From assembly GCA_963965975.1 (NCBI GenBank), contig OZ014411.1, positions 10,981,501-11,045,500 of the forward strand: a stretch of DNA of 64,000 nt, given 5' to 3'. This DNA comes from Xestospongia bergquistia (lineage: Eukaryota; Porifera; Demospongiae; Haplosclerida; Petrosiidae). The stretch's first letter is position 1. Each line of letters begins with the position of its first letter. The translations under genes and the position numbers were made by a program. The notes below the pieces were generated by a model. That model ran no database searches. It saw only the letters and a list, made by a program, of their open reading frames with translations, and was not told the origin of the DNA. Below, piece after piece: positions 21,300-59,837 of this stretch.

Positions 21300-23225
21300 A
21301 GCATTAGTAGTGATACACAATATCATATCATATGCAGTTAGTGTTTACAAAATTTATTGCTGATATAGGAATAAGCAGTTAAAGGATCCACTTTAATGTC
21401 ATTTGTTGATCTCATAAGCTGCAGTTACAATATAGTGAATAAAATTGCAAAAGTGGATACACATAGATATCACAAAATCCAAAACATTTATTGTACAACA
21501 TGACAACCATTCCGTGCAAGGCATTAAAAACCATTACTATCAATACAAATAATAGGTTAAATAAAATAACAATTGTTATTTTATTTAACCTATTATTTAA
21601 CATTCAATTCGAAAGACTTAGAATTTATACTACATTTATTACACTTACCAACTATTATATTTTAAATAACACATTCAGATGATAAGGAATCACAGCAACA
21701 TAAATGTGAGAAACAAAACAATAGAATAAACAAAATCACAACAGAACATTCAATATACTTTCAATTCATACTACATTCTATTAATAAAATTACATCCTAT
21801 AATATATTGTAAAGGAAACATTCGAGTGATCAGTAGCAGTTAAAAGATCCATGCACTTAATGTCACTTCTTGCTCTCATATGTTGCAATAACAATATAAG
21901 GAATAAAATTGCAAAAGTGGATGCACATAGATAGCACACAATCAAAATCAATTATACTACAGCCTGCTGAGCTTCCTATACAAGCATTAAAAACCATTAA
22001 CATCAATACAAACAATAGGGTAAAGAAATAACAACATTCAATTCAAAAGACTTAGAATTCATACTACATTATATTACACTTACCAGCTATTATATGTTAA
22101 ACATCACATTCAGATGAGAAGTAATAACAGCAACATAAATGTGGAAACAAAAAGCAATACTCTAAACAAAATGATAACAACACATTCGATATGCTCAGAA
22201 TTCATACTAGGCTATAGCTATAAAATGTTCAAAATATACATAAAAATAAACCTAGCAAAAAGTTTCAAGTGTTATTAGTAATAGATACATAATCTCATAG
22301 CAATCACAGTTTGTGTTAACAAAATTCATTGCTGATATAGGATATAGGAATCAGGAGTTAAAGGGTCCATGCACTTTCAAGTCATTTGCAAAGATGGATA
22401 CACATAGATACCACACAATCAAAACAATTATACTACAGCCTTCCAAGCTTTCTATGCAGGTATTACAAAAAAATAACATCAATACAAACAATAGGGTAAA
22501 TAAAATAACAACAATTAATTCAAAAGACTTACTACAATACATCACACTTACCACCTAGTATATTTTAAAAAACACATTCAGATGATTAGTAATCACAGCA
22601 ACATAAATGAGAAAAAAAAATAAAGTAAACAAAATCACAACAACACATTTAATATACTTTGAATTCATACTACATTATATCAAAATTACATCCTATTATA
22701 TTGTAAAGGACACATTCAAATGATAAGTAGTACATAAATGTGAAAACAAAATAAATTCATTAAAACATTACAACAATGCATTTAATAAGTTTAAAATTCA
22801 TACAAGACTATACCTATAAAAAGCTCAAAATATAGTTAGAGAAACAACTTAGCAAGAAAATTCAAGCATTGTTAGTGATACCCAATGTTGTATCACATGC
22901 AGTTAGGGTTAACCAAATTCGTTGCTGATATAGGAATAAACAGTTAAAAAGATGCATTTTAATATTATTTGTTGATTTCATGTGTTGCAATAATAATGTA
23001 ATATATAAAATTGCAAAAGTGGATACACATAGATACCACACAATACAAACCAATTAAGCACAGCCGGACAAGGTTCCCATGCAAGGCATTAAAAACTATT
23101 AATATCAATACAAACAGTAGGGTAAATAAAGTAACAACATTCAATTCAAAAGCGTTAGAATTTATACTACACTATTTCATACTTACCAACTATTATATTT
23201 CAAACAACACATTAAGATGATAATA
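21300..23225 (-). repeat. Complex tandem array of intron-shaped units
   Basis: Three to four diverged higher-order copies share the blocks TGCTGATATAGGA, AAAATTGCAAAAGTGGATAC, ACACATAGATA-CACACAAT and CAATACAAACAATAGGGTAA. On the minus strand each copy carries AG|NNN|GTAAG-like centres at 23187-23189 (TTG), 22690-22692 (GAT, donor GTAATT), 22552-22554 (GTG), 22084-22086 (CTG), 21794-21796 (GAT, donor GTAATT) and 21649-21651 (TTG). The sequence around the centres resembles the 140-bp array at 39.3-40.8 kb, but units here are larger and irregular. No adjoining exon could be fixed, so it may be inactive. Confidence 0.65.
21547..21598. repeat. Perfect 52-bp palindrome
   Basis: The left arm AAATAATAGGTTAAATAAAA and its continuation are matched exactly by the right arm, with the axis in the central AATT at 21571-21574. 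It lies in a copy of the repeat block that elsewhere reads only once (for example near 22490-22510), so one arm looks like a local inverted duplication. Confidence 0.85.
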
Positions 23226-23269
23226 AATTACAGCAACATAAATGTGAAAAACAAAACAATAGTACTCCT

Positions 23270-27840: not shown

Positions 27841-30800
27841 CATTGTAGCTTAAATGACAAGTATTGACATATTTAGCACATACATTGGCATTAATATTTT
27901 ATTTTGTTTGGTGAAAACTTTTAATATGAACACTGTCATATTAAGAACATAACCTGAACCAAATATCATAGCATATACTTTCTGTATGCAAATAATATAT
28001 TTATTAAGTCCTTAAAATTTTCCAAAAGTAGAGCTATAATATAGAGCTTGTGGATAGTTTTGAAAAAATATCAAAAATCAAACGCATTAGCCACATTGAA
28101 ACTTCTTAAAAGTGTATGAAGAGGATTACTATTGTTGAACTTGTATGTAGTACAGATTAGTAATGTTTCTTTGTGAACACAATCCTTTTATTAGAAATAT
28201 ACATGAGTTTTAACCTTTCTGATCAGCTTCCAGTCTGGCATAATTTTTATTTGACTAAACTTTGTGTAGTAATCACTTCATGACAATGCTTATATAGTAG
28301 TTAGTATATAGTAGATGTGATACTGTGCATGGACCCTCTTTCAAAACACATTTTGCATGTTGTGCTTACAACAATGATTCCTTTCTGCCTATAATAATTA
28401 TCCAGTGTAATATATGTGCATTGTTTAATTGCAGCAACAATATAACTTAAAAACTGACTTGGTTTTCTCAAAGTTATTATGTATGTTGGAGGATTGCCAT
28501 AATACGATATCCCATTAAGAGTAATTGTAATTTTAGTACTTGCGTTTTCACAATCATCATATTCAAACTTTATCTGGAAGCGAGGTGGGTATGACAGGCA
28601 ATCTTCTAGGACTTTAAGAGCCTCTTTCTTATCCTCAGTTACTAAACCTCCTTCACATTCCATCACTTTGTAAAAATCAATAGCATCCTCTGAAATCTAA
28701 AATGAAATTAATATTTAATGAAATCTCTCTTTAATTCTCTCTCTCACTGGAGTAATGTTTTTCAATAACACATGCCATCCCAGAACATCATCAGGTGTAC
28801 AGGTAATGGAAGCAGAGGATCCAGTAAATATTATAGGTTGAGGCCGTGTTAAAGTATATTTTTCCTTTTCATATTGTTTTTCAACCATCTGCATGTTATT
28901 GAAAAAATATTTACTTTGGCATTTAAATATCATGTTACCTCTTTGCATATTTGCTGTCGATACAATAAACAAAAGTCCACTAACAAAGTATGACCCTCAT
29001 CCAGAATTTTATCAGCTTGCATGATCAAGTACTGCTTTGGTATCTTGTCATACTCAGGTTTCTTTACTGCACAGCAAAGTGAACAAAAGTGACTACAAAG
29101 GATTTTCACTAATGATGACTGAATATTTATTTTGTATTCATGACTTTCGTTAAAAGCTAAGACATTGTCCATTATGAAGGACTTATCATATGCTTTGAGT
29201 AGATATAGTTGACTGTATGGATCCTTCACTTTAGACACATCAATGTGGTGAGGTATGTATATTTCTGCAGGCTTTATCAACCCACAGTCGATGTTTACCC
29301 ACACAATAGGAGAAACAGGAACAAATTCATTAGAAAATTTAAACTTTTGACTTAAAAGACAAGCTCCAATTCTTACAGTAGCTTTTTCTTTCACTGCTCC
29401 TTCTGGAATGATCAAAGCAACACCATATTGACTGGAGTGATAAGTTAAACCTGTTGCATCTACAGTTAACTCAGTCAACTCTTCAAATATGGCTAAAATA
29501 TGTACAAAAGATAAATATTACCACATAGCACAAATTCATATACCTCTAAATCTGTCTAGAAAGGCAAACACTGTATCAGTTGAACCTGTATTCTCAGAAG
29601 TAAAATGGACCTGTGCATTGGCTTCAATAACACTGCCATCAAATGTATCTGATAATAATAGATGTTCAAGATATTAATTTGTATTAGATAATACTCTTTT
29701 AATAAATTAAATAAAGAACAGTGTATGTTTGATGATTGGCCACACATACATTTTGAGCTATAATAAAATGCATTTTTTTGAACTTTTAGTCATTATAAAA
29801 AAACATGTATTAACATGCAGGTGAGACCACGTTTTGAGGGAATACAGTATGTGTAGTGTGATAACTGCCATTAAGAGTTACAGAATGATTACAAGATAAA
29901 ACACTATCTTAAGATTAAAATTAAAGATGTGTGCTAGTTGATTTACAAATCAAATAACCTAGAAAGTTCATTATTTATTGAACAATTATTATATAGAATC
30001 AGAATCTTTCTATCTTGTGAAGTTACACAAAATTATTGATAAATGTCAATAGTAATTATCTAAATCAAGGATTTTATTAGTTGTAATACTATGACTACAA
30101 GTTCATAATAAACAGTACATAGCTATGTATACTTACCTGTATTCGGATTATGACTAAATATATCCTTAATTTCTTCCTCATTACTGACATCATCTGGAAG
30201 AGCTAAATTAAAACAGTTTTAAAATCTATGTTATGCAAACAAAGTTAATTACAGAATTAGTTTAACAACAACTAGTGTTGAAGTAGTGCAGTAAAATGTC
30301 ACTTAGGAATTCAGCATATCTGTCTTGTTACACATGTTACATATATTGATATAGTATTTGGTCACTGATAACTTACTGAGTTGTGACCGTGAACTTTTAA
30401 AAGACTAAGCAAAAACATCAAATACAAACAATCAAGTTGACATATTGGAAGTAATACATGTTGTTTACATGGAAGCTACATGTAAACATTACTAGTAAAT
30501 GCAATGGAGGTTCTTGTTCCATTTCATCTACCTCCACTAAAGAACAATAAAAATTAATATTTAAATCCTTTCAATATGTCTGTTATTGAATATCTATCTT
30601 TTAGTCATTTTTCTTATTTAACATTATAGCTATATTGTTTTATACTTTTTGTCTCAGTAGGTTTTGGCAGAACTAGAGGGGAGAATTAAAAGTGGTAATC
30701 ACTTGACCCAGAGTATCTGTAGGATTACATGACTGTAAGGGAGCTTCTTGTTCCATTTCATCTGCCTCCACTAAATAACAATAAAAAATTAGTTTTTAAA

Positions 30801-31925
30801 TCTTTTCAAATATGTTTACTGTTACTGACAAGCATCTACAGCTTGTCAGGAGGTCCTATAATTGTTCTGAACAACATAATATCTGTATATAATTATGTCT
30901 ATTCAATTTGTTTGATTGTAGACTATTGCTATACATGACAATTGAAAGCAACCTATGCTATGAGCACTACAATGATGAGTATGTCTGATAAAGCTTCTCC
31001 AATAGCTTGTTTCAATTCTCTGATTTTATTTCTAAGATTCTATAGCTATAGTTTTCCACTAACACTGCTATTAATAATACTATTCATGTTGCTCTAGTCA
31101 GTGCTTTACTGTAAGGTCAGAATCTTCAAAACAATTATAAGATAATTATAATCATTTCAATTATACCAGGTTGATCAGAAAGGAGATATTCATTCATGAT
31201 CTCAGGTCTTGCTAAAAAATCACATATCGTATCAGCTACTCTCTTTTCTTCAACTGGAGGATCATTTATGACAGTGATGATCATTCTCCAAGATATGTCA
31301 CAAGTTTTCCTATCTATCCAATGTTGAAGGACTCTGGAGAGTTTTGTAGCATTAACAAATGGCAAAACAATTATGGACATCATATCAGCATATATTTGAC
31401 CTGAAGTTGTACACCAATAATATTCCACTTATAATTAATTGGATGAAGTAGTGTCATCAGATGATTTTTCTTTGGCACTTTACCTAATAAGGAAGGAAAA
31501 GGTGTTATCATAATATATGGATAACCAACATAACAAATCATTAGGAATTCCATTGTGGCTTTTTATTAATTGTAAATCATAACTAGGAATAGTTACAGTC
31601 TTTTCATCTCTCATTCCATTAAATGTGAGCTCCAAATCTGAGATATTCTCCTGTTTAGATTTAAGTGTGGCCTGAAACTTTAAGTAACAAAGAGCAGTGT
31701 CAGGACAACTATTATAGACATCTTCCTTTGTGACCTTGTAACAAATATAAATTCTAGCAATAGAGGAAAATTTTAGAACTTTACTTGACATGGAGTTATT
31801 AGTGGCTTAATGTCAAAGAAGTCATTTTCTAGTGAAGATGACACTTTATTAACCTCTGGATCAAAGTAAAAAGGGAATTGTTCCAACTTTTTCCAACTTT
31901 TAAAAACTCTGTCCGTGTTCACTCT
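27192..31925 (-). CDS. Death-domain / ZU5 multi-exon gene (possibly damaged)
   Basis: Minus-strand exons, 5' to 3'. 31785-31925 (VFKSWKKLEQFPFYFDPEV) joins in phase 0, across a 50-nt intron, to an exon starting at 31734. That exon runs through VTKEDVYNSCPDTALCYLKF (possibly UPA-like) to a Death-domain end (LSRVLQHWIDRKTCDISW) and a donor at 31167. Next come an acidic exon at 30708-30770 (VEADEMEQEAP), another at 30137-30202, and 29544-29648. 28939-29492 holds the ZU5 domain (YGVALIIPEGAVKEKATVRI). Then come 28748-28888, 28370-28696 and a last exon 27192-27556 with a leucine-rich helical segment; a 27-nt exon at 27606-27632 may precede it. ZU5 and Death domains co-occur in UNC5, ankyrins and PIDD, signalling scaffolds. 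The Death exon has two apparent frame changes (about 31400 and 31485), so the 5' part may be a pseudogene. The acidic exons are paralogous to those of the gene upstream. Confidence 0.6.
27817..27840. repeat. TA microsatellite
   Basis: About 12 consecutive TA units in an intron of the ZU5 gene. Confidence 0.9.
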
Positions 31926-33681: not shown

Positions 33682-36600
33682 TTAACATTGACTATAAAGG
33701 TAATCACGTATCTCCTTAGCCGTCTTTTTGCTATTAACAATAGGCCCCTCAATCACAGAAATCAATGTCTCCCAGGAAACAGGTGATAATGACTTAGATT
33801 CTATCCACAGATTTATTACTTGTGAAAGCTTGGTTGTTGTACTGTTGTGAGGATCTTGTAGGCCATCTAATTTATTGCGTGAAATGTTGAGGGCCAAACC
33901 AATTTCTTGCCATTTAGCATCAATATTTGTCAACAGTGAAACTGCATCCTTGAGATTAGGACATTCCTTTAAAATATCTAGAAAAAGTGGTCCATTGTTA
34001 ATGACTGATTAAACTGAATCTTATATATTATTGCATTCAGAAAATTAACAACTTCTACAATGTCCCTACAAAATGCCCTTATTAACTGGGTCCACTGATA
34101 GAAAGGTTTAGTAACATAATTATGGATATGGCACTTGTTCTGATTGAACATAAAGTTATTATATATGAATAGTATAGTAATATGGTTTATCTTATTAATA
34201 ATTATTAAGTAAAAAGGTTAAAAGACCTTATTAGATGGGAAATTGAGGTAAAAACAAAAATGAAAATAATTATTATCTACAACTGTAGTCATTTTAAATT
34301 ATTGGCACAATCATATAGCCTCATTATGAGACATTAAAGGTATGTACAATATCTAAAACTACATTATGGTGACACCTTGACACCTTGATAATCCTTAAAT
34401 ATATAGTAAATATGGTTTTCATGATTCACCTGAGGAAAGGCTATTATTCAAAGCTGTGTTTGTGTTGATATATAATATCATGAACATTCTATTTATCAGT
34501 AAGCAATGAAAATTTTGAATGAATAAAATTATTTAGTTTCTTTAATGGCCAGTTTAATTTTAATAACAGCAAATATGTTAATTGTGGTGAATTACATGAC
34601 AACTGTCATTAAAAGAGTTACAAAATGATTATAAGATGATAACACTATGTTAACATTAAAATTAAAGATATGAATAAGTTGATTTAAAAAATCAAAATGG
34701 CCTAGAAAGTTCAAAAATTTATTGAACAATTATTATATAGAATCAGAATCTTTCTTGTGAAGTTACACAAAATTATTGATAGATGTCAATAATAATTATC
34801 TAAATCAATGCTTTTATTAGTTATAATGCCATCACTACAAGTTCATAGTAAACAGATACATAGCTATGTATACTTACCTGTACTCATATCATGACTGTAA
34901 ATATCTTCAGTTTCTTCTTCATCACTGACATCTTCCAAAAGAGCTAAATAATATACAGTTTTAAAATCTATGTTATGCAATGAAACCAAATTAATTTAAC
35001 ACAACTTGGTTAAGGTATTGCAGTAAAATGTCACTTAGGAATTGAGCATATGTCTTGTTACACATGTTGCATATACTGATATAGTATTTGCTAACTGATA
35101 ACTTACTGGGTTGTGACCTTTTGTACCTAGGTTGTTGTGGCTTTAAACGTCTGAATAGTGAAGACAACCGACCTATTTTTTGAAAATATAGTATATGTAT
35201 TAATGTTAATCTAGATGTAATACATAAATGTAAAATAGAATTAAAAATACATAATAACAACAACTAGGCAATGTGAAATATCTCTGATTCAGTATATGTT
35301 AAGATATTTTTTACCTTTATTGGTCTTCTTTTGTCTAACCTATTAAAAATATATATTATTATAATTAATGATGTTAAAATATCTATAGCTAATTATCTTA
35401 GCGTCTTTCAGTCACCATACATATAGTCCTATCTAAAACTTATAAATCTAAATAAAAAGCCATACTTTATTGTAAAACTAATATTAGGTTCCAAGGTTTA
35501 TCGTATAGGGGTCTAAAGTACAGTATTAATTTATCATTGAAGTATTGTATTTTCTGTTAGGATTGTCTAAAGTTTTGTATAACAACTAATTTTTAACTCA
35601 CCATGTTTTCATGTGTATCTTCCTCACTAGCAATATGATGTTTGCTGTCAATTACTCTAAAATATAATAACATTAGCTAAAACTAATTAAAATACTCACT
35701 GTGAGGACTTCTGAATTGAATTTTCTTGAAGGATATGCTGTGTTTCCTAAGTACATAATTGTCAGAAATGAAACAATATTGACTTTTATGGTATACCTTC
35801 TGTATTGTCCTGTCATCTTTGAACCAGTATGCTTCCTCTACTGATAGTGATCGGTATGGTAATTTCTCTTCACTTTTTTCACAATAAACAAGCTTACTAC
35901 TAGTTTGCTCTGAAGATGTTTGTATGTAATGTCGATGATCTAGTTTATGAGCACATTCATCTGATTGACAAACATATTTAACTTCAAAAGTATTAATGGG
36001 ATAAGACATTTCTTCAGTAAACGTTGCTGTTGACCTACTAAGAGTTATTTCAACAGCTTTTGCACTCTTTACAATAAACATTTTGAGCTCTTGACAGAAT
36101 TGAGCAAATGACTTATTAGAATAATTTCGAACAGAGCTCACTACATCAACAAGTATAGCATTTTGAAGATCTGTGAAGGCAACAAATGGATCACCACAGC
36201 GAAAAGTCACATGGTTTCTAAAAACTCCATGATCAAAACAAAGCTGATAAGTAGGATCACTGGCAATAGTAGTGACAAAACGTGTAAAAAAACCTGGTGG
36301 TACAAAACCAGTTGAAAATGTGATGTGTAAAGGTGATGCATGTATGTAACAACCAGCCAAAACTTCATAAGGATCTCTAGGGAATGACTTCAGGATTGCA
36401 GGTACGAAATACTGCTTAACCTTAGGATCATGATGTATACTGGTACGGACTTTTGCAGCTATTCGAAAATCTACTAAGAGATCTATCAGAGCATCAGGCT
36501 GAAAGTCTTCACTTTGCTTCCATATAGAATTATACAAATGCTCAATTAAAATGCCATACTCTTGAAACTTTTTCCACATATCCTCTACATCGAATTTAAT

Positions 36601-38382
36601 ATCACAAGGATCTATGGTAAATAATTTACCAATAACATCAACAAAATATTTGGGACTAACAACAACTTTGTTTTGAAGACCTTTAATGTGAGGATAGAAT
36701 AATAAAGCCCCTAAATCATGATAAAAGAGAAGGACTTTTGGAACATCATTAGGTGAAATCTTGCAAGCACGTGCAATGATATGAGCTTCTTCAAGACTCA
36801 CAACATTTTCTTCTAAGGCTTGGATTACCTTACGAAAGAGTACCCAGCTTATAGGTGTCTTGACAATGAGCTTTTCATAAGTAAACTTACTAATGAGTCT
36901 TCGAATTAGTGCAAGATTAGGGTCTTCACACTGAGAACCAGATGTTGTATTATCAACTATGATAACATCTTCAATTAGCTCTTTGAATGCTTTTCCTTTT
37001 ATATGAGACTTTAATTCAGATTTAACCGCACTCCTTTGTTGTTTAGATTGTAGGCGATCTCCATGAGTGCCAACGCAAAGCATTCGAGGATAGCCAGGAG
37101 TGCTATTACCTTCATGACCTTGAGCAAGATGGCCATGAATATTTGCCATCCAACTAAACATAAGATCTAGAGTGGTCATGTTAACTTCTTCAAGGAACTT
37201 TTCATGACCAGCTATATTCTGCACAGACCTCCATCTTTCATTAAGCCCTCTTGATGCATCAAACATGAGAACAAACAACGTACGAGGAGTGAGAAATGCT
37301 GGTAGAATTTCAAGAAATACAGGTTGACCACCACAATCCCAAATATGTAAAAATGGTTGAGCTTCGGTATTCGTGGTTGTTAGAGAATCAATATAGTCAA
37401 TAGCCTCATAAAGAATCTTGTCTACTTTTCTTTCTTCCATTTCTTTAACTTGCTCCTCAGCAACATCAAGTGGCAACTGTGCACTAGTGGCATCATAAAG
37501 CAATGATGCTTTAATTGCATCACTTGGATTATGTACACCTAAATTATCTTTGTAGATAGATGACAGTAAGTGTGCCATTTCCTCCAGCTCATCTTCATAT
37601 GTGGCTACTTTCCATTGATGGTCCTTTAAAGTTCTCCACTCATGGCCAAAAGGACGAACACGATAAACATCTGAAAGACCAGTGCTGGTAGTGTCACGCT
37701 CAAATGGTAGTTTCATCAGTGATCGCTTAAAGGTAGTCTTCCCTACACCTGCTGTACCAAGAAGCATGACACGAGCATAAGGTATATTCCTTTCCCCACC
37801 AGCTAGAGCTCTTTTATAAGACTCTGTATTTTCAAACATATTAGAATTATATAAAAAATCTAAACTTTAGAATATAATAATTTTTTGTAGCAAAATATTA
37901 GAGTTGTGAAAATAGGAGAGCTGGCAACGATATTTATGGGGAAAGTATAGATCTAGGAAGCAAACTCTAACAGCAACCAATAAAATGAAAACATACTCAT
38001 ACATTCAGTACATGGCCCAAAACAAAATATATCATGCTATTTGTAGTAGGAAGTAATAGTTATTTAAATTTCTGATTAAGAATATAGTCAAGTAAAATAT
38101 AATATATTTAGCATTATTTTTTTTCAATACCCTAAGTTTAAGCTGTAATGCTATAGAGTGAATTATTAAAAGACTAAGCAAAAACATCACATACAAACAA
38201 TCATGTTGACATATTGGAAGTAATACATGTTGTTTATATGGAAGCTACATGTAATCATTACTAGTAAAAAGTATACTTTATCCTATGACTTTTGTGGTTA
38301 TAATCCATATAAAATTTAATTAATTGAGCTTAACAGTACCTACTATTTGTTGACTTCTATCAAGGCTATTGTTAAAGTTAAT
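33682..38382 (-). CDS. ROC-COR GTPase with C-terminal Death domain (5' end not found)
   Basis: Seven minus-strand exons join in frame with no stop: 38340-38382 (43 nt), 35700-37823 (2124 nt), 35602-35654, 35315-35339, 35107-35172, 34878-34943 and 33682-33977, for 890 codons plus the stop. The large exon has a ROC-type GTPase: a P-loop GTAGVGKT, then DCGGQP (switch II) about 140 residues later, then THGD at the TKxD position. A COR-like winged-helix region follows (VLLFYHDLGALLFYPHI, then VVVSPKYFVDVIGKLF). Three small exons encode a basic and then an acidic linker (LLEDVSDEEETEDIY). The last exon is a Death domain (KWQEIGLALNISRNKLDGLQ to SWETLISVIEG). ROC-COR-Death resembles the C-terminal half of DAPK1, but no kinase or ankyrin part is seen here. 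The N-terminal exon is missing: 38340-38382 starts in phase 0 and needs an upstream partner. The 140-bp array lies 0.9 kb upstream. Confidence 0.85.
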
Positions 38383-39305
38383 CTGAAAAAAAGTTTAACC
38401 TATTCAAACAGCCAAATCTTAATTTTTCTTCCATACAAGCAAATTGTTTGTGATACAAAAGTTGTTAATTTAGGAATTTGTTGTGTGATCTTGACAAATT
38501 ATAACCAAAAACTATGAAATGTTGTGTAAACCATAATATATAATTCCTAATAATCTGAAATATAATACTACACAAGAAGCTACAAGTTTATAATAGCTAT
38601 TAATATTTAGCAACACTGATAATTCTTAATAATCAGAGGTTTACTACATGTACATGTAATATTGACAAATGAGTAACAGCTTAATTCACAATTTCAGTTT
38701 ATTGCATAATCTTTTCTGACATACTTTAATCTAAATAGTTTAATTATAGGTGTTGTGAAAATATGTAGTTATTATTAAAATAGTTTGATCTTAATTAGGT
38801 ACTTTAATATTGGACTGATGATAATTGCTTTTTGGTTCTTGTTCTTATCAATACATACAAATTATCTGAGGCAATTAGTACTGACCTCTTAATTCCATTT
38901 TCTAGATAAAAGAGAATATAAAGATTAAAGTAAACATTATTACAGTATATATAATAATTAATATATACAAATATAGATCACAAATATTAAAATTTTAAAA
39001 TAATTAATGTCACGAAAAATTGAATACTAATAAAAGTTAATTTTCTGCAAAAAGTATGAAGCTCTAAATTTCTCAAAGCAAATTACAAAAGTATATTTTA
39101 TGATACTTTTTTAAAACTTATGATCTATTTTCTTACGAGATCATATTAATTCTTAATGTTACTGCTAACTTAATCATATGGAGTAGAATAAAAATTATCT
39201 GAATATAGACTAATATAAGTATGCATAAAAAATTGAACATAAAATTGTTATGTTACAACTAAAAACTACCTATATATACAGTATTTATTTCAGAAAGAAG
39301 TGTTA

Positions 39306-40845
39306 AACAAACTATGATAATAACCATATTTCACTAGTTAATTGTTAATTATTATACTACAATAGATCAGACTTACATCCTATTATATAATACATCCATG
39401 TGTCAGGTAGTAACATCAAATATAGAGAAGGAAACAAAAGGGTTAATAAAACTATGATAATAACCATATTTCACTAGTTAATTGTTAATTATTATACTAC
39501 AATAGATCAGACTTACAATCTATTATGTAATACATCCATGTGTCAGGTAGTAACATCAAATATAGAGAAGGAAACAAAAGGGTTAACAAAACTATGATAA
39601 TAACCATATTTCACTAGTTATTTGTTAATTATTATACTACAATAGATCAGACTTACATCCTATTATATAATACATCCATGTGTCAGGTAGTAACATCAAA
39701 TATAGAGAAGGAAACAAAAGGGTTAATAAAACTATGATAATAACCATATTTCACTAGTTAATTGTTAATTATTATACTACAATAGATCAGACTTACTCTC
39801 TATTATATAATACATCCATGTGTCAGGTAGTAACATCATATATAGAGAAGGAAACAAAAGGGTTAATAAAACAATAAAAATAACCTTATTTCATTAGTTA
39901 ATAGTTAATTATTATACTACAATAGATCAGACTTACAATCTATTATGTAATACATCCATGTGTCAGGTAGTAACATCAAATATAGAGAAGGAAACAAAAG
40001 GGTTAACAAAACTATGATAATAACCATATTTCACTAGTTATTTGTTAATTATTATACTACAATAGATCAGACTTACCAACTATTATATAATTCATCCATG
40101 TGTCAGGTAGTAACATCAAATATAGAGAAGGAAACAAAAGGGTTAATAAAACTATGATAATAACCATATTTCACTAGTTAATTGTTAATTATTATACTAC
40201 AATAGATCAGACTTACATGCTATTATATAATACATCCATGTGTCAGGTAGTAACATCAAATATAGAGAAGGAAACAAAAGGGTTAATAAAACTATGACAA
40301 TTGGTATATTTCATTAATAAATAGTTAATTAATATATTACAATAGATCAGACTTACCACCTATTATATAATACATCCATGTGTCAGGTAGTACAATCAAA
40401 TATAGAGAAGGAAACAAAAGGGTTAATAAAACTATGATAATAACCATATTTCACTAGTTAATTGTTAATTATTATACTACAATAGATCAGACTTACATGC
40501 TATTATATAATACATCCATGTGTCAGGTAGTAACATCAAATATAGAGAAGGAAACAAAAGGGTTAATAAAACTATGACAATTGGTATATTTCATTAATAA
40601 ATAGTTAATTAATATATTACAATAGATCAGACATACTTTCTATTACATAATATATCCATGTGTCAGGTAGTAACATCAAATATAGAGAAGGAAGCAAAAG
40701 GGTTAATAAAACTATGATAATAACCATATTTCATTAGTTAATAGTTAATTATTATACTACAATAGATCAGACTTACTCTCTATTATATAATACATCCATG
40801 TGTCAGGTAGTAACATCAAATATAGAGATGGAAACAAAAGGCTTA
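39306..40845 (-). repeat. 11-copy, 140-bp array of microexon-like units
   Basis: Eleven copies at an exact 140-bp period. On the minus strand each is a stretch with a pyrimidine-rich tract (CCCTTTTGTTTCCTTCTC), a candidate branch site CTGAC about 23 nt before ATAATAG, three variable bases, then GTAAGTCTGATC (GTATGT in one copy). Plus-strand positions of the triplets are 39377, 39517, 39657, 39797, 39937, 40077, 40217, 40357, 40497, 40637 and 40777, each 3 bp. In minus-strand order they read AGA, AAA, CAT, GTG, CAT, TTG, ATT, AGA, GAT, ATT, GAT. Flanks are near-identical between most copies. The array edges fall about 65-75 bp either side of the outermost triplets, in the middle of the intron-like part, as in exon duplication. 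Spliced units would each add one codon, and the next downstream exon starts in phase 0. It could also be a plain minisatellite. Confidence 0.9.
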
Positions 40846-40849
40846 ATAA

Positions 40850-42490
40850 ATTTCATTAAACATTAATCAGAACATTTCATTTTCAGTATCAATATAGCAA
40901 TGAAAGCAAGCATAATTATAACTTGATATATTATATAAACTAGTTCATATTATTAATTTGTTAATCTTGTTTCATAAACAATTCCATATATTATACAGGG
41001 GTGGAGAAAGCTTAAATGAGCTTCCCAGGCCATTGCAAATGAAGTGCTAAAAATTGCTGTAATTCATGATCATTGAAAAAAGAATAAAATAGATGTTTAT
41101 TGTATACACAAATCAAACGCTTGTAAATAGTTGTCCTCACATTATTGCCCAGGCCATGGTGAATCTCCAGGCCTGTTATACTTAACCTTCCATTATATTA
41201 GGTAGTGACAAGTTAGACAATGTAAGTATTCAATATAATGATTGGATTAACAGTTAAGAGGAACCTCTCAAAAAAATTAAGTTTGAATTATGGTCCAAAA
41301 AAGTTTATCCTACAAATATATATTTTTTAGAATGTGGTTGTAATATGTTAACTACAATATACATATGGTTTTGTAACTTGTTAATAAGTATAAAATATTG
41401 TTATTGACAATTATTCATTTGTGGTTTAGTTGTTAATTAGGTCAACTCTTTTAGCACAATGATTTGTCAATCATGTTTAACTTTAGTCTTTTGTTACTCC
41501 ACTTGTATTTAAATGGATTTCCCATTTAATAAAATATACACATTTAAGTTGATATTTAAGTGAAGTTAACAACATATCACAGTGTCTAATTAATTATTAC
41601 TGCTAACATTAATTTATTGCTGTCCTTTACATGCTTAAAACATCCATAAACACAATGAACAAGATTTAAAACACTAAGAAAGAGAGTTAGGCTGTCAGTC
41701 ATTTCAATTGCCCTGCAAAGATGTTTCATTAGTGATCGTAGTAAACCTTTTTATTTAAGAGACAAGAATATGGATGGAGTAAATGACACAGTAAGTACAA
41801 TGTAATATCATTAAAGCTTGATTGCAATAAAATAACATAAATCTTGAAAAAACATTATTCAGTGATTTTCATTATTATGGTAACAAGGATAAATTCCATA
41901 GGTATATATCTTTAGATTTGAACTTGACAGACAATAGAGCATACTTTCTAAAAGAACTAAAATTAATGTATTGTATATTTCTATAGAGAATACTGGTGTG
42001 AGTGGACAAGAATGTATTTTAGATATGACATCATTTATAATTTTGATTGATTGCATAATCAATCAAAATCATTATTTTGTTGTCTTAAAAGAAAAGTATT
42101 ATTAGTTATACCAGAGTACACTCATGTTCATACCTACAAACCAATGCCCATTCACTAGACCATTTGTTGAAATGGATCAATACTCTGGATGACCTCGTTG
42201 ACAGTTATTTCATTTAAAGGAAAAAAGGATAAAGCTAAAATGATCATTCTTATGATGTGATATCGGTTGCTTATTAAGATACATATAAACAAGTTTGTTG
42301 TGAATGCAGGGGTATGTGTATATTACAATTTTCATGCAATGTTTTATGGGGTTTATAACCAGTCACATATAATATTGATGTTCACAGTTTTAGATGCAAA
42401 ATTAAACTTTGAATTAGTAAACTTACAGTCCGTATATTTCCCTTCATTTTTAGTCTTGTAGCCATGTTTCTAAAAAAATGGAATGAGAAC
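40850..42490. other. No gene seen upstream of the array
   Basis: No exon ending in phase 0, as needed by the ROC-COR-Death gene, could be supported here. A CAGGCCAT motif is repeated near 41027 and 41150. A CACCATGGCCTGGG stretch near 41147-41160 on the minus strand has a good start context but reads only a few codons and leaves in phase 2. Confidence 0.4.
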
Positions 42491-42494
42491 ATTA

Positions 42495-43760
42495 TCAACT
42501 TAACTTGGTTGTGGCATTGAATCTTAAATTAAGAATCTTAATATGCTTATCAGTTAGTAAATCTAGCTAATAAAAGTTCTTCCTAGCTCTCTATTTGATT
42601 TTTTTGTTATTTATGTTTTTACCTTTGTTATAAAAAGACATTTTCTATCTTTAAAAACATTTTGGTACAATTAGAAAATGCTTGTGGCAGTGTTCATAAT
42701 AAGCATGATAATGTGATATCACAAGATACTGAAATATAAAAATGCTGATTATTTTATATTCTACAGAAGACAAGGGTGGACATTCCAATTCCTATTTCCA
42801 ATCAAATGAGGTTATACAAAGTTGGAATGTCCGTCTTCAGCTTCTGTAAATGACAAAGCAATAAGAGGTGGAAATGTCCATCCTTCATTTCCATATATGG
42901 CAGATTTTCAACATACAAACAAAATCAGCAAACCTAACCTAACTGGAGAAACATCTCACTGACGCTCAATTTTAAGAGTGACTTGTTGCATTTGCACCCC
43001 ACATTTATCAAATAATAAGAAAAGCAAAAAATTAGAAATGGTCCATCAACTGGTTTGTTAATTGGAATTATCAAAAATGCAAAAGGTGCAATGAAGAAAT
43101 AGGAATTAGAATGTGTTTCCTCGGATTCAATAGTATTCTTTTTTGGTCAGGCAGATTCAACATTTTATAGTCTAATGCATGAAGAGCCATCTGTAAACTA
43201 TATATATTAGCCTCGAACCCAGGCATTCGCGAAAGAACTTAACTTGGTTGTGGCATTGAATCTTAAATTAAGAATCTTAATATGCTTATCAGTTAGTAAA
43301 TCTAGCTTATAAAAGTTCTTCCTAGCTCTTTATCTGATTTTTGTGGTTTATGTTTTCACCTTTGTTATAAAAAGACATTTTCTATCTTTAAAAACTTTTT
43401 GGTACAAATAGAAAATACTCGTGGCAGTGATCATAATTAGCATGATAACGTGATGTCACAAGATACTGAAAAGCAAAAATGCTGATTACTTTATATTCTA
43501 CAAAAGACAAAGGTGGACATTCCAATTCCTATTTCCAATCAAATGAGGTTATACAAAGTTGGAATGTCCGTTTCAGTTTCTGTAAATGACAATGCAGAGG
43601 TGGAAATGTCCGTCCTTCATTTCCATATATGACAGATTACAATATACAAACAAAATCAGCAAACCCAATCTAACTGGAAACATCTTACTGACACTCAATT
43701 TTGAGAGTGACTTGTGGTACTTGTGGTACTCACACTCCACATTTTATTAAGTAACAAGAA
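42495..43760 (+). repeat. Direct duplication, about 740-bp period
   Basis: 42495-43020 recurs at 43235-43760, starting AACTTAACTTGGTTGTGGCA and including the TGGACATTCCAATTCCTATT stretch. Each copy contains a short inverted repeat GGACATTCCAA ... TTGGAATGTCC spanning about 60 bp, related to the MITE-like arms at 33165. No coding content is seen. Confidence 0.8.
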
Positions 43761-49855: not shown

Positions 49856-50829
49856 GATTTTTCTATATATACTTTCAGTGTTGTTCTAAACTAAGCAATG
49901 AATACCTTCAAACAATCTAGTCCTGGATAACTGCTGAGTGCAGTCTTCCAATCTATTTCTCGTTTTTCTGATAGTAAAAAAATAAGAACTTCAGTGCATA
50001 AAGTTAGGTATATGATTTACCTCTAAATACTGTATTTCGAAAGATAATCCTTTTCCCTCGCGATACGTACAGACTATCTATCATCGTTCATTCTAAAGAG
50101 TTATTACTACTGTATAAGTCATGCCGATCAAGAGAGCTGAAGTCTGTATTGAACATAAGGAGGACTTTAAGAGATCTAATGTCTTTAGTGAGCTGCCCAA
50201 GCTGTGTCGCGTTGGAACAAATCAATAAGGTGTGGCTGATTCTTTAATTCGGATACAAAGAAATATCTTTGTTAAAGGATTAGAGCTAAATAACTATATT
50301 TGGCAGCAATAAAGAGACATGGCTTCGTTGAGAATTGAAGTAATTATGAATGTCGCTGCATATAACTACTGCTGCTTTCTTTGGTCATCAGATCTGATCG
50401 CAGTTAGTCAGATATCTCTCAAAATGACTTCAATTTTACTTGTTCATTTGGTGATGCTCTCAGGTACAACTGCATGGTTTATATAGCATCTACATTTCTG
50501 TTTGGTCTTAATTATATAGGATCCGGAGTAGCATCATCTTTCTCAAACAGTTATAAATTATGTTAATGAACTTATACTAGCAAGCAATTGGAATGTTCCA
50601 TTCAACATGTATTTCAAGAAAATGAAACACCAACTAACAATGGCAGATATAATGAATTGTTTTGATTCTTTTTTTACAAGTCCTCTTCATGGATAGTCAA
50701 AAGAGCACCAACAAAAACAAATTTTACCAGAACAATTGAGACTAGTTGTATAAGAGTTCAGTTATATTGTGTAACTTTACATTAATACTTTTCAATGATA
50801 AAAGATCCTGGTGACGATTGAACTAGCTA

Positions 50830-51345
50830 TTTAGGGACATCTATATGTGGTCACATGTACAGAAGACTACTAGTGGAACAAAAGGATACTTATCAATATG
50901 TTCCCTTAATTGAGAATTTACAAAATAAAGAAGTCTATATATATATGGAGGTAATATACTACATTTGTTTGTTATTAATATTATAATCATGAAAACATGT
51001 ATACTCCATTGTGATATTAATAGAACACAATATTTCTTGTTTAGGAGCTTATATAACTTAGTATTAATTTTTGGAAGTTTAATACTCTTAAAATACCCAT
51101 TGTTATATTGTATCTAATAATTATAGATAACAAAGACATATGACATGAACAGATAACAAAGTTAATGATATCTGTGATGAGTCTTACTTCAAACAACATC
51201 CATTATTTAGTGGAAATCATTTGTCCTTACAACTTATAATCTATTATAATGAACTTAAAGTGTGTCTTAGTCATAGATGTGGAATGCACAAATTAGGTAT
51301 AAATGAAATAATATACTCAGTCATACAAAGAGTGAGGGTATTTTC
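50830..51345 (+). pseudogene. Relic of a transposon-type protein (copy 2)
   Basis: Counterpart of 955-1501. It differs by small deletions (the PLGHG block is shortened here) and substitutions, confirming that neither copy is under coding constraint. Confidence 0.4.
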
Positions 51346-52390
51346 TCATGTGGATTACTCCAGTCAATAACATAGTTAATTCAACTAAATAACAGTGACA
51401 GTCAATGCCTGTGACTCTATCATATCACACTAGATCTGTTTTTCTATACTCTCAGTGACTTGGATTTAAAAGTGTTTTAAAATGTCTTATCACTGATGTA
51501 TAATAACTGAAATAAGTCACTTTATTTAGTAATGATTAAACGATGTGGTATTTCCATATTAATAGGTGTAAATATTATTATCCATGGCAACCTATCCTTG
51601 CGAGATGAACAGTGGTCACTATAGTGGCAGACACACTAGCTGTTCATCAAAATGAAAGGTCTAAAGTGTGGCCTTCTTGTTGTATAAACGCAAATTGTGA
51701 TTAGTGACTAAAGAATCTAAGTCTGAAAAAGGTAATTATTATAGTAACAGTTATTTAAGTACTTAAATTACTTTCATGCACTTAGCTATGATTATTAATG
51801 ATTTATATGTTTGATCAAAAATATTAACTACACAATAATAGTTTTATTTATAGTATACAGCTTCTATAAAGACTAGCACATATTTAAACAACAGTAAGAC
51901 AACCTAACGAGTCATTATACCAAGTTACTTTTAAAAGATCATAAATATGCAATTTACTTTAATTATGTAGTTTAGAGAAAGAGATTTCATATTCTGAACA
52001 CCACACACTTATGACTATCATTGCTCATTGTTGAGTGGACCATTGGGTAAGTAACTTATAATGTTATATTTGGAAATCCTTTAAATGACCTTTGGTACTT
52101 TTATATTACAAATATTGATTTATTATAAAGAGATAATACAGAAGAAATAGGATTTGGAATGACTGTTCTCAGCTTCCATACTATTACTAGAATATAAATT
52201 GCAAGACTGGTATTTACACCTTATAACTGTGTATTGGAGCTCTTGTGAGTGTAAATTTGAAACTGTTTTAAAATTCAAGAAAAAAAACTACTTACAAAGA
52301 AAATAAGTCTAGAACTTTAGATAGTAAAACAAAAATACTTGAAGACTTAAATTGTGATAACATAATACATATACAATATAATAAACTATA

Positions 52391-52426
52391 TGTGACCGGA
52401 TTTGCGAAAAGGGACCACTTCTGTCA
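52391..52426 (+). repeat. Left terminal inverted repeat
   Basis: Begins TGTGACCGGATTTGCGAAAA and continues to CTGTCA. It differs from the right end at three positions. Confidence 0.9.
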
Positions 52427-52690
52427 AAAACAAAAATTTCAGTATGGACAGAAAAAGTGATGATTTCAATATTTTGGGTAAATTGAGTTAAACCAAAAAA
52501 CGAAGAGAACAGTTCTTGACAGTCATTTTGAAGCGTGTAGAAAGCCAAAGATCTTTCTAGCTTTGCACGTAGAAGCATTCGCGTTCTCAGGATAAGATGA
52601 ATACGATAAATACACGGAGTATATGACACGAGCGTGTCCAAAGATATTCGATAAACAGTTCGCGGCAATAAATTTCTAGAAAAGATTCGA

Positions 52691-55600
52691 TGGCTTCATC
52701 AAGGGACGTTGCGAAGGCTTTAAACATGATTGGAGCAGATTTTCTCTCCTCGAGTGATAAAAAAGCACTCGATGACCTGATATACGAGTACTTTGACCCT
52801 CGAAGTAAGTGTGATATCATGAATTTCATTACATAACAATGAATACAATTTGCATTTTAAAAGGCAATGATGATTCTGATGATTCTGATGATTCAGATGA
52901 ATTTGAAGATTTCTTCCAAACAGAAGGTAATTGAGTCTCTAATATACATAATTCTCAGTGATGAAAAAAAAGTTCTAACTAACAGCTGCTCTAAATTTTA
53001 AAATCTTGTTGTCGACTTTTAGCACATAAGACCTCTCCAGCTGACAAGAATAAACTGACAGACAACAGTAATTATCTAGCTTGGGGTAGGAATAAAAGTA
53101 TGATAACATTAACTATACCTTTGGTCTTACATTAGAGCATACCACCCCTCCAACTTATGAGAATCTCCTGGAGGAAAGCAGTGATTCTTTAGCTAGTGGT
53201 AAAGACTAAAGTGTGCTAATATTATGTTAACTTCACCTTTTGTCACTTGTTAGCACACGTGAACTCTACAGTTGGCCAACAAGTCGAAGAAAACAGCCAT
53301 TTCATCATTACAGGTAAAAACTTAAATATTCTAACCTTTTCTAAAACAATAGAAAATACGACATCTACATCTGGACAACAACTTGGAGAAACTAACCGTT
53401 CTCTCACTAGTGGTAAGACTTTAAGTGGTCTAATATTATTTAAACTTCTGCCAAATGTTAGGATGTGTGACCTCTCAAATTGGTGAGCATCTCCTTGAAG
53501 AAGACACACATTATCCAACTAGTGGTAAAAATGAAAATGTGCAAATTTTAACTATACCTTTTGTCAAATGATAGCACATACAACTACTCCACCTGGACAA
53601 CATCTTGTTGTTGGAGACAACAGCCATTATCCAACTAGTGGTAAGAATGAAAATGTGCAAATATTAACTAAACCTTATGTCAAATGATAGCACATACAAC
53701 TACTCCAGCTGAACAACATCTTGTTGGAGACAACAGCCATTATCCAACTAGTGGTAAAAATGAAAATGTGCAAATTTTAACTATACCTTTTGTCAAATGA
53801 TAGCACATACAGCTGGCCAACATAATGAAGTGCTGATTGGTGGAAGTGAGAGTGATGGACACCCAGTTCTAGAGAGTAAGTATTGAATATGTAATACAAA
53901 AAATAACAACAAAACCTATAATTAGTTGGTGGTGAAGTCTTGATTGGTGGAAGTGAGAGTGACGACAGTGATGATGAAAATGAACGTGAGTGTTTTTTTA
54001 CTTACAACTTTTGAATCTATAATTCTACAGCTATTATACCATCTACTGTTGCTCTTGATGTCCGTACCATTGATGTAAATGAGGAACTGAAAATACAAGA
54101 ATTTGCTAAGAATGGGTGTACTTGTCAACAAGGAGAAAAACAACAACCTTGCTGTACATCCATTACTTCTGATGAATATAAGAGTTACAGGATGAGCATA
54201 TTTGAGCTGACAAAGAAGGAATTGGATTTGGTAGTCATTGGTCAAATAGCAGCTATGACTAACTTCAGTGACGTAAAAGTTAACCACCATTTCTCTCAGA
54301 CTCGGAAACACCAGCACTCTACATTTCTACATGGAGGAAGACGGGTCTGTTTAAAGACCTTTCTGTTTTTACATGACATCAGCATTAAGAAATACAAGGC
54401 GCTAAAAAGGCATTACCATGAAAATGGTATTGCTACACGACAACATGGCAACGAGGGAAGGTTACCAGCTAATACCATGACAAGAGATGATATCAACAAC
54501 TTATTGAGATTCCTGGACAACTACAGCGAAGAGAACGCAATTCTTTTACCAGGTAGAATTCCAGGATACAAAAGGGATGACTGTAAGCTATTACCATCAA
54601 GCAATACAAAGAAAATGATTTGGATGAAATACAAAGACTCAATTGAACAATATGGAGGTCGATGTGCTGCTTACACTACTTTCTGCTGTTATTGGAGGAA
54701 GCTTCGACCAACTCTTTGTATTACAAAACCTATGGCTGACCTTTGTGCCATTTGCCACAAGAACAGCTCTCTTATCACTAGTTCCTTTAGATTTGGGACA
54801 CCAGAAAGTGAAAAAACAGAGGTAATATTACAAGGAATGAGTGGATATATTACACTACAATATAAACATTATATTAATTACATAAGTACTTGAACTTTAG
54901 GTTTTAAAAAAGGCTAAGGAACATCTAGAGTTAGTCAAAACAGAGAGAGACTATTATCGTCTTGTGACAAAAGAGGCACATCGTATTTCAGTGGAGCATT
55001 TTTCCATCAATAACAAGTACTCACCTCCACAACCAGGTCTATACAGTCAACCTCAATCTGGGCCTAGCCTGGCCCATTACAGCTTTGATTTTGCTCAACA
55101 GGTTCTATAAAATGAAACATGATAAACCTAATTTAACATAATTTATAGGTGCACTTTCCATGTGACCCATGGCAGCCTGGACCACTCTATTTCAAAACAC
55201 CTCGGAAGTGCGGTATCTTTGGAGTGCATTGCGAGAGTATTCCAATGCAGATGAATTACCTAATTGATGAGTCAGCAGTAACAGGAAAAGGGGCTAATGA
55301 AGTCATCAGTATGCTCCACCACTTCTTTGAGACACATGGTCTTGGAGAAGCACATTGCCATCTACATGCTGACAATTGCGTTGGGCAAAATAAAAACAAC
55401 ACAGTAATTCAGGTACTATAATAAGCTACTTTCAAATTAACAATAACACTCAAATTTAGTACCTTTTATGGAGAGTTCTTGTCGGTCTACACAGTTGCAT
55501 CACTCTCTCTTTCCTTCCAGTCGGACACACAAAATTTTCCCCAGACTGGTGTTTTGGACTTCTGAAACAAAAATACAGAAGAACAATAGTTGGTTGCTTA

Positions 55601-56168
55601 AATGACATTCACCATCTTGTTGAGCAATCAGCTGAAGTCAACCAGGCCCAGTTAGTTGTTACCCAGGATGGAGAGATGATTGTAAAAATGTATGACTGGT
55701 CAAACTTTCTCAACCCTCACTTTAAAAAAATTCCTGGTATAAAAAAATTTAAACATTTTCACATCAATACAGACAAACCAGGTATTTTCTAAAATTTTTT
55801 TTAACTTCTTATCTATACCTATTATAGGAAAGATAGCAGTAAAAACTTCTTCATTTTCTACTGTACATACATTTAATGCACTAATTACTCCGTGGACTCC
55901 GTCTCAAGACAGCCTACCACTTATAATTATCCCTAAAGGGTTAAATTCCAAGAGACAGTGGTACCTTTATGATCATATTAGGGAACACTGCCCTAATGAA
56001 TTTTGTAAGAACGCTGTCTGTCCTCATCCAACTGTACCACGGCCACCTGAGAGCACCAGCAACAAGACCATGCCTCTGTCTCCAATTACTAATGCCGAAC
56101 CACCATCAAAAAGATGTAGGATATGTCAAGAGACAGGACACAATTCACGTAGCTGTAATAACAAGTAG
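52691..56168 (+). CDS. Transposase of the TIR element, 16 exons
   Basis: The start at 52691 (MASSRDVAKALNMIGADFLS) is followed by exons joining in phase with GT/AG sites: 52691-52804, 52864-52926, 53023-53085, 53136-53198, 53254-53313, 53353-53412, 53462-53524, 53575-53640, 53691-53753, 53804-53875, 53926-53985, 54031-54821, 54901-55101, 55149-55412, 55460-55781 and 55828-56168. The N-terminus is acidic, then Thr/Ser/Pro-rich from tandemly repeated exons. A Cys cluster (NGCTCQQGEKQQPCC) follows, then KKELDLVVIGQIAAM and a CAICHK pair. HADNCVGQNKNN lies in the 14th exon, and WCFGLLKQKYRR and DWSNFLNPHFKKI in the 15th. The last exon ends with a CCHC knuckle (CRICQETGHNSRSC). The H-x-DNCxGQNKN motif is typical of a widespread uncharacterised family (DUF7869-like, from memory), probably an RNase H-fold DDE domain with D as a catalytic residue. 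No in-frame stop was found. Confidence 0.8.
53023..53875 (+). repeat. Tandemly duplicated exon-intron units in the transposase
   Basis: Eight consecutive exons of 60-72 nt, all phase 1 at both ends, are spaced about 100-120 bp apart. The best preserved pair (53575-53640 and 53691-53753) encodes AHTTTPPGQHLVVGDNSHYP and a close variant. Others keep the frame ending PTSG or TSG before the donor, and a start AH or EN. The introns also match (ATGAAAATGTGCAAATTTTA in three of them), so whole exon-intron units were copied. The products would form a variable-length hydrophilic N-terminal repeat. Confidence 0.8.
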
Positions 56169-56641
56169 TTAGTCATATTAATAAAAGAAATCTTTTAAGT
56201 TAATACAATTCACGTACTTTCACAATTTTTCAATTACACGATAAAAGTAACCTCGAGAGCTATTGAGAGTTTATGCTCTTTCTTGTAACGATTGTAGATC
56301 ACTACAATAGTTCCTTCGCCAATTTCAGATCAAATTAAACTTTAAAGGTAATGAAAACAGCAGGATTGTAGAGGATTCCTTGTCCCTTAGAAAAGCTACT
56401 AAAAATTTACTGTGCTAAAATGTGCTTTTCTGGATCACGTGATTTGCGGAAAAAATTAGTATACGGTATGCGTGGGCGGAAAGATTAAATTCCTTATTTC
56501 TCAAAATTAACTTTTTGTAATAGCCAATGTCTTTTCGTTTATACATTGTTACTTTAACAACGCATGCGTCTACCAAAGGTATCAACAAATTCAGCGTGTA
56601 GAATACTTTAAAATGGTATGAAAAAGTCAAAATGACAGAAA

Positions 56642-56677
56642 TGACGGAAGTGGTCCCTTTTTGCATATCCGGTCACA
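56642..56677 (-). repeat. Right terminal inverted repeat
   Basis: Reverse complement begins TGTGACCGGATATGCAAAAA and ends CCGTCA, pairing with 52391-52426. Confidence 0.9.
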
Positions 56678-57927
56678 TATATATATAATAACTATGAGTT
56701 ACTTTAGAATTACAAACTATTGTCCATCACAATCTCTATGACAGCAGGTATATCTTTTTGTGAGTCTTTAGTCCAAACACATAGTACTGGATCATCAATA
56801 AAATTGACTAGAGAGGTTTTAGGTATGCAACGTCATAAATAAAGTAAGAACCCACCATGTAGATCAAGGGACTCTCAAAAGAATTCAGTTCACAGGTAGC
56901 TTCTTCCTCTAATATGATATGGAAAGAGGTCTCTTCAACAGGTGTGATCATGTATGAATCATTGAACAAAAATTAAGCATGTTAAGAGTAGTCAATATAT
57001 ATAGTTATTAGCTTATCCTTTATACTTTGATCAGAAAATATTCAAAGTAACTAGTCTTGATGTTCAAGTCCCGCCTAATGAATGACTAATATATATAACA
57101 GTTGGCTTATTATTCATGATAATAGACAACACTATCTACAGTTAACATTAACTTCATAAACTGTACTAGTCTCCTCAAGGCAGATTTTAGGGATCAACAA
57201 TTCAGATAATAACTAAAAAGCAATAAGAACATTATATCATACAACATTAATTTAATAATAAAATACCTTAATTAATTCACAAGTTCTTTTGTTTCTTTGT
57301 CATCAAAAGTAGGGAAAAGTTTTCAATTTTTTTTTGGCCATGAGTGAATGGATGTTGATCCTTCATTCAACAGCTCTAAATTCCATCCTATACATGAATA
57401 GAGAAGAAATTAACAGATGTAAATAATGATAATGATATTAACAAGTTTCATTAACAATTCACTATTTTCCAAATCTTCAATAATGTGTATTGCTAAAGGA
57501 TTTCCAAAACTAGAGGTTCAAATCCTGTCATCTATTTCCTGTCTAGAAAATGTTCAAAGACTATCATCATTTTAGATCATCAACACATCCACTTGTGTCA
57601 CTTCAAAGACATTTGAAAGTCTTCTGCATTTTGGATAAGTAGTAACAGAATCTTAGGAGCAGATAGATGACATAGAAACTTGACTTCATCCAATAACTCT
57701 GTTTTCCAAGCAAACTGAGCAATTAAGAAATTCTTCATAACAAACTTACACAATGAATAATTGTCATACACTTACATAGACAGTAGAACCAATTTCATCT
57801 TTTAATATTTGGATATGTTTTAATCAGTTTATGACATACAGAGTTGTACTGATCACTTGAAGAGTTTCTTGTATGTATCATTATATCAAATGTTGAGAGA
57901 GATGAAATAATCTCTGTTCTTACTCTT

Positions 57928-59815: not shown

Positions 59816-59837
59816 ACCCCCCCCCCCCCCCCCCCAC
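59816..59837. repeat. Poly-C tract
   Basis: About 21 consecutive C residues inside the retrotransposon linker, likely length-variable. Confidence 0.9.

Follow-up and report, generated by a model that had tools for sequence, protein, structure and literature searches.

A candidate bank of single-codon exons upstream of a Roc-COR open reading frame in the sponge Xestospongia bergquistia

The locus described here raises the question of why three bases should change from copy to copy in a tandem repeat whose remaining positions hardly differ, and whether those three bases could be exons of a single codon. It lies in a 64,000-nt stretch of Xestospongia bergquistia DNA (contig OZ014411.1, positions 10,981,501 to 11,045,500 of the forward strand), called the window throughout, which is AT-rich (GC 24-38% in 2-kb windows). 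We favor, at a probability of about one half, the reading that the repeat, array 1, is a bank of eleven tandemly duplicated 3-nt cassette exons that would be spliced stepwise and feed a Roc-COR transcript.

Eleven exact modules with a variable triplet

Array 1 consists of eleven units of exactly 140 bp on the minus strand, about 1.4 kb 5′ of the Roc-COR open reading frame (ORF). TRF on the window returned a period of 140, 11.1 copies and 0% indels at 39298-40850; the spacing from triplet to triplet is exactly 140 bp for all eleven, and modules drawn from -66 to +73 about the triplet tile 39306-40845. In minus-strand order a module comprises TTAAC, a pyrimidine tract, an AG-free stretch with CTGAC, (A/G)TAATAG, the triplet, GTAAGT and 65 nt.

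39306-40845, minus strand: array 1, eleven exact 140-bp modules
40777-40779, minus strand: triplet 1, AGA (Arg); the unit carries TTAAG, not TTAAC
40637-40639, minus strand: triplet 2, AAA (Lys), unit 40639; donor GTATGT
40497-40499, minus strand: triplet 3, CAT (His), unit 40499
40357-40359, minus strand: triplet 4, GTG (Val), unit 40359
40217-40219, minus strand: triplet 5, CAT (His), unit 40219
40077-40079, minus strand: triplet 6, TTG (Leu), unit 40079
39937-39939, minus strand: triplet 7, ATT (Ile), unit 39939
39797-39799, minus strand: triplet 8, AGA (Arg), unit 39799
39657-39659, minus strand: triplet 9, GAT (Asp), unit 39659
39517-39519, minus strand: triplet 10, ATT (Ile), unit 39519
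39377-39379, minus strand: triplet 11, GAT (Asp), unit 39379

The triplets thus run AGA AAA CAT GTG CAT TTG ATT AGA GAT ATT GAT, seven distinct values encoding seven distinct residues. A preliminary description of this DNA had reported eleven exact 140-bp units, seven triplet values and the residue order Arg, Lys, His, Val, His, Leu, Ile, Arg, Asp, Ile, Asp, all of which the repeat analysis and the triplets bear out. Concatenated in order, the eleven codons are open in frame 0 alone, which is a weak point, and the lack of stop codons among them (0 of 11) is near chance expectation and hence uninformative.

The same description had placed most of the change in the triplet, and this proved correct. 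Of the 140 alignment columns 31 vary, and pairwise differences average 0.70 per site within the triplet versus 0.057 outside it; under shuffled columns, the best three-column window reaches the triplet level with P 0.0002. When the changes are placed on a flank-based tree, the three columns of the triplet require 5 + 5 + 5 of the 46 parsimony steps (15), and the 137 other columns share 31, with at most 2 in any one. This excess is 22-fold, with a binomial P of 2.5e-14 that ignores exchange between units and is to be read as an order of magnitude only. Among the 23 unit pairs with four or fewer flank differences, the triplet differs in 21 and is the same in 2; units 39659 and 40079 differ at 1 of 137 flank positions and at all three triplet positions, as do units 39799 and 40219. 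Flanks said to be near-constant are so at the average of 0.057 differences per site, but not everywhere, as units 40359 and 40639 have a cluster of flank changes in common.

Two explanations that involve no splicing bear on these figures. An assembly or sequencing artefact might have inflated or scrambled the array, given that near-identical repeats assemble poorly and that units 40219 and 40499 are identical in sequence. The exact 140-bp period, the different pairings of flank variants with triplet variants and the existence of a diverged second set of units speak against this, and we hold it to be very improbable. Alternatively, array 1 might be a minisatellite-like array, intergenic or in a 5′ intron, whose splice-like motifs were inherited from an old exon and are not spliced now, the triplet diversity being a residue of earlier selection or of some unknown local mutational process. 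Within the array, 280 bp and multiples of it are the most frequent offsets, so local unequal exchange is evident, as a minisatellite would have it; the exact three-base excess between AG and GTAAGT is left unexplained. We judge this second alternative unlikely, though far from implausible, and return to it as further evidence arises.

Splice-site motifs and an older set of units

Are the borders of the triplet those expected of the single-codon exons that we favor? The preliminary description had read them as splice sites on the minus strand, and the motifs are real: AG|NNN|GT framing is present in 11 of 11 units. The conservation claimed for ATAATAG immediately before the triplet and GTAAGT immediately after it holds in 10 of 11 units each and breaks down in unit 40639, which has GTAATAG and GTATGT. 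Its candidate branch site, CTGAC, occurs as a sequence motif at -27 in 11 of 11. To these signals we can add an AG-free run of 60-83 bases before each TAG (11 of 11), a pyrimidine tract at -59 with 13-14 pyrimidines in 15 (11 of 11) and an adjoining TTAAC (10 of 11). Across the window the median AG-free run is 10, and 1-3% of its 7,369 AGs match the array-1 acceptors in this respect. The candidate branch site would be either the distant TTAAC or, as an alternative, CTGAC. The hallmark of distant-branch-point exons, according to an excerpt of PMC1431707, is this arrangement, in which branch site and tract lie near the distal end of the AG-free zone; the excess of alternative splicing is demonstrated there for zones of at least 100 nt. 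That cut-off defines the large human zones of the excerpt, whereas the zones of array 1 span 60-83 nt in an AT-rich genome.

Scored on a generic and approximate splice matrix, the array-1 donors rank in the top 0.35-8.1%. The acceptors score poorly and do not pass as good ones by this standard, 40-82% of all AGs in the window doing as well; because the acceptor part of the matrix reads only the last 18 bases, a distant tract is invisible to it, and the poor scores count against splicing unless the distant tract is used. Weak acceptors are what a minisatellite would be expected to carry, but donor, AG-free zone and tract are still found together in 10 of 11 units of a recently homogenized array, which a minisatellite does not readily account for.

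We also scanned both strands for AG-N0..30-GTRAGT preceded by 55 AG-free bases. The minus strand gave 18 matches, of which 14 are 3 nt long, all 14 in array 1 and the second set; being related copies, these are not independent. The plus strand gave a single match of 16 nt. Six lone AG-N3-GTAAGT sites (5746, 61053, 4599 and 58937 on the minus strand; 2480 and 53873 on the plus strand) were set aside: their AG-free stretches cover only 2-16 bases, and the unit model matches none of them at an E value better than 3. Two of them, the AG-CTT-GTAAGT sites at 5746 and 61053, lie in two pieces of a large direct duplication (3-8415 and 49857-63729, 92.8-96.4% identity in pieces, offsets of about 49.8-55.4 kb), and the plus-strand AG-AGA-GTAAGT at 53873 follows a 116-bp tandem repeat of 2.6 copies at 53509-53811.

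The same motifs might be put to other uses. A spacing of three bases between AG and GTAAGT would lend itself to stepwise splicing, and the intact donor after 10 of 11 triplets would be in keeping with ratchet points of recursive splicing, or with decoy sites acting as regulators, in a long 5′ intron, the bases between them having no protein role. A noncoding role, however, gives no cause for the triplets to be hypervariable, and the recursive splice sites known to us have zero exon length; we consider this reading improbable. Spliced-leader genes form tandem arrays with a GT donor, and the units could in principle be tandem genes for a spliced leader or another structured small RNA, with GTAAGT as its donor. 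One array-1 unit folded as RNA shows a local AATAG/CTATT hairpin, but its fold is no better than those of shuffled sequences (z-score 0), the second set, judged by eye in the alignment, has not kept the partner strand of the hairpin, and a leader RNA would have no use for signals on the acceptor side. A search of the whole window for Rfam families at gathering score and for tRNAs found neither. Small-RNA genes are the least probable of the explanations weighed here.

The window also holds an older, second set of six units that have diverged from array 1, together with two outliers that belong to the family:

21598-23248, minus strand: second set, six units, diverged from array 1
23187-23189, minus strand: triplet TTG
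22690-22692, minus strand: triplet GAT, donor GTAATT
22552-22554, minus strand: triplet GTG
22084-22086, minus strand: triplet CTG
21794-21796, minus strand: triplet GAT, donor GTAATT
21649-21651, minus strand: triplet TTG
14525-14754, minus strand: two outlying units of the same family
14708-14710, minus strand: outlying triplet GAT, GTAAGT donor
14569-14571, minus strand: outlying triplet GAT, both splice sites degenerate

Units 23189, 22554, 22086, 21651 and 14710 were found through a search for the motif TAG NNN GTAAGT, and units 22692, 21796 and 14571, with weak or broken donors, were added by reading the nearby sequence. Intact TAG|NNN|GTAAGT is present in 5 of the 8 units and the donor is imperfect in the other 3, a partial degeneracy that would suit a minisatellite. 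Three of the seven spacings are close to the array-1 period (138, 145 and 139 bp); the rest are 290, 468, 497 and 6,941. A perfect 52-bp palindrome lies at 21547-21598, about 50 bp downstream of the last main unit.

An HMM made from second-set units only recovers 11 of 11 units of array 1; E is 1e-7 to 3e-5 for ten of them and 0.67 for unit 40639. One interval pair, array 1 against second set, aligns globally with a score of 38.5 (500 shuffles: mean 8.1, maximum 23), and the intron middle of that pair scores 6.0 (shuffles: mean 3.2, sd 3.6, maximum 14.5), so that in this pair the junctions align and the middle does not, a pattern expected of introns. One array-1 unit was also aligned with seven second-set units, all but the most degenerate one (14571). 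Of 134 placements in that alignment, AG plus GTAAGT is the best conserved, and the triplet columns fall to a conservation of 0.39-0.46 against a mean of 0.55. A conserved AG plus GTAAGT with a dip at the triplet has the look of introns around a changing exon. Within the second set alone, the splice placement ranks third of 125 (eight units) or eighth of 121 (the four NTG units), a conservation partly ascertained because most units were found by the TAG NNN GTAAGT search.

The second-set triplets are not hypervariable, four being NTG and four GAT. Among the NTG units GTAAGT is 100% identical, versus 64-66% just downstream, and positions -60 to -41 also reach 93%; among the GAT units the donor has 81% identity and the triplet 100%. 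Acceptors were scored on the generic matrix for seven second-set units, and 15-78% of the AGs in the window do as well. Array 1 also carries TTG, GTG and GAT, three of the four different triplets of the second set (P 0.0086 with a simple composition model), which would fit long-lived codon lineages but is no more than a hint. In neutral simulations run to 40% divergence, 0.1% of 4,000 runs kept both AG plus GTAAGT and an AG-free zone of 55 bases; since that motif is how most of the second set was found, the figure does not serve as a P value.

The Roc-COR context

If the triplets are exons, the question becomes which protein they would enter. The relevant features are as follows:

42427-42465, minus strand: candidate first coding exon, found by eye, ATG...ACT followed by GTAAGT, phase 0, MATRLKMKGNIRT
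38340-38382, minus strand: candidate downstream exon, INFNNSLDRSQQIV plus 1 base, T-rich acceptor
35686-37866, minus strand: Roc-COR ORF, 727 codons from stop to stop
33685-34008, minus strand: Death-like ORF, 1.7 kb downstream of the Roc-COR ORF

The preliminary description had assigned the array to a ROC-COR-Death protein, and the first two domains stand. In Pfam the 35686-37866 ORF matches Roc (1.2e-9) and COR-A (2.6e-11), both above cut-off and in the order that marks a Roco protein, a Roc GTPase followed by COR; against PDB its matches are LRRK2 chains (best E 4e-5). The Death part is less secure: the downstream ORF matches Pfam Death at E 0.0013 with 19.3 bits, below the gathering score of 22.6, and FADD at E 0.057, and it is perhaps the 3′ part of the Roc-COR gene. 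A second ORF like it, at 31138-31428 (43% over 46 columns), falls below notice in Pfam.

The two candidate exons on either side of the array are in phases that would read the triplets as codons. The donor of the first ranks third in 40860-43500, with two scoring better, and the acceptor of the second, an exon put forward in the preliminary description, is in fitting phase but ranks only sixth in 37800-39290, where the best are at 39044 and 38901. Neither exon is unique in this sense, and we therefore do not use them as evidence; tblastn of both within the window found no further copy at E below 1. The Roc-COR ORF moreover has its own ATG 3′ of array 1 (the M of YNSNMFENTES), which would be in order if the array were a minisatellite outside the coding region. 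With better-scoring donors and acceptors available and an ATG of its own in the ORF, the link from array to protein is one that we infer.

Several duplications surround the gene. A 490-bp direct duplication (42497-42986 and 43236-43715, 92%) lies just upstream of the candidate first exon. Segments 30389-30499 and 29859-30388 resemble 38158-38268 (95%) and 34597-35118 (85%), respectively, and these segments, contiguous at 29.9-30.5 kb, match the two flanks of the Roc-COR exon as if from a paralogue without that exon; a ZU5 ORF follows them at 28930-29517. Taken together, the Roc-COR, ZU5 and Death-like ORFs point to an animal source. Searches of viral contigs and of bacterial and archaeal genomes gave no match to the Roc-COR protein, nor did viral contigs match the 25-base unit core or bacterial and archaeal genomes the donor-side core; the collections being viral, bacterial and archaeal only, this absence of relatives says little.

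A proposed mechanism and known systems

Tandem modules with intact acceptor, codon and donor lead us to take stepwise splicing of single codons as the likeliest reading of array 1. Each 140-bp module would bring a branch-like site, a tract, a TAG acceptor preceded by an AG-free run, a codon and a GTAAGT donor, and one or more modules would be spliced into a transcript running on to the Roc-COR ORF. Inclusion would probably be sequential, module after module, because a 3-nt exon is too short for simultaneous definition from both sides. Joined in phase 0, every included module would keep the frame and lengthen the protein by a single residue, N-terminal of the Roc domain. The preliminary description saw in such insertions a possible source of receptor-like diversity. 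The intronic part of the modules may be kept alike by gene conversion and unequal crossing-over, and selection may keep or renew differing codons; selection for codon diversity together with homogenized introns would explain the contrast between triplet and flanks.

A stronger version of this mechanism, possible though doubtful, is that codon-by-codon combinatorial splicing writes a short, hypervariable peptide barcode on the N-terminal side of the Roc-COR (probably Roc-COR-Death) protein. The barcode would be written through the choice among units, with as many as 2^11 subsets, and through changes in copy number; it might serve immune recognition or self/non-self marking, and diversifying selection would keep codon identities while the introns homogenize. 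If so, the animal could vary a protein of innate-immunity type residue by residue. Known alternative exon banks swap tens of residues at once, and a one-codon exon bank would, to our knowledge, be the finest-grained splicing diversity yet described. With eleven near-isogenic copies made by nature, a bank of this kind would also test how small an exon can be and still be recognized. Exons so small easily escape annotation and read mapping, as an extract of PMC8831610 has it, so similar banks elsewhere could have been overlooked.

How far, then, does the proposed bank resemble systems already described? In a mutually exclusive cluster of the Dscam type each transcript takes exactly one exon; in array 1 any number of inclusions would keep the frame. 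Arthropod Dscam, a recognition-type gene, has tandem duplicated alternative exons, as array 1 would, but these exceed 100 nt and diverge throughout. The exons of the schistosome micro-exon genes (MEGs) are longer than those proposed here and dissimilar to one another, whereas in array 1 each candidate exon is one codon and the introns are copies of one 137-nt sequence. In MEGs, very small symmetrical exons make up most of the coding region, alternative splicing yields a pool of similar proteins a few residues apart, and dN/dS is above 1 in some families (PMC4350168, in excerpt). Small exons are not the majority here, the downstream coding sequence being one long 727-codon Roc-COR ORF.

Regulated gain or loss of one codon, tied to local protein evolution, is described for NAGNAG acceptors (PMC3250501); these, however, are a choice among neighboring acceptors of one intron, whereas the triplets of array 1 would be separate exons. 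That 3-nt microexons exist, as the preliminary description stated, is borne out by isolated cases in Drosophila homothorax and troponin T and in mammalian NCAM (excerpt of PMC7392893). In plants, single 1-nt exons are reported; APC11 and VPS55 are the plant cases among the isolated 3-nt and 1-nt exons, and the donor of the 1-nt exon in VPS55 is a conserved GTRAGT (excerpt of PMC8831610). Array 1 would share with these the exon of one codon or less, which real spliceosomes splice there. Two plant microexons lie in tandem in PMC7714060, and the term "microexon clusters" in PMC7821500 refers to classes of expression rather than to arrays in a genome. Among the matches listed for tiny exons, microexon clusters, sponge microexons and sponge Roco/Death, whose titles and abstract openings were covered and with most subscription papers and bioRxiv preprints falling outside, no tandem bank of 3-nt exons appeared. 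Isolated microexons such as those of homothorax, NCAM and VPS55 are single and conserved, whereas array 1 is tandem and hypervariable, and what sets the array apart from known microexon genes appears to be the size of its candidate exons and the restriction of variation to the codon.
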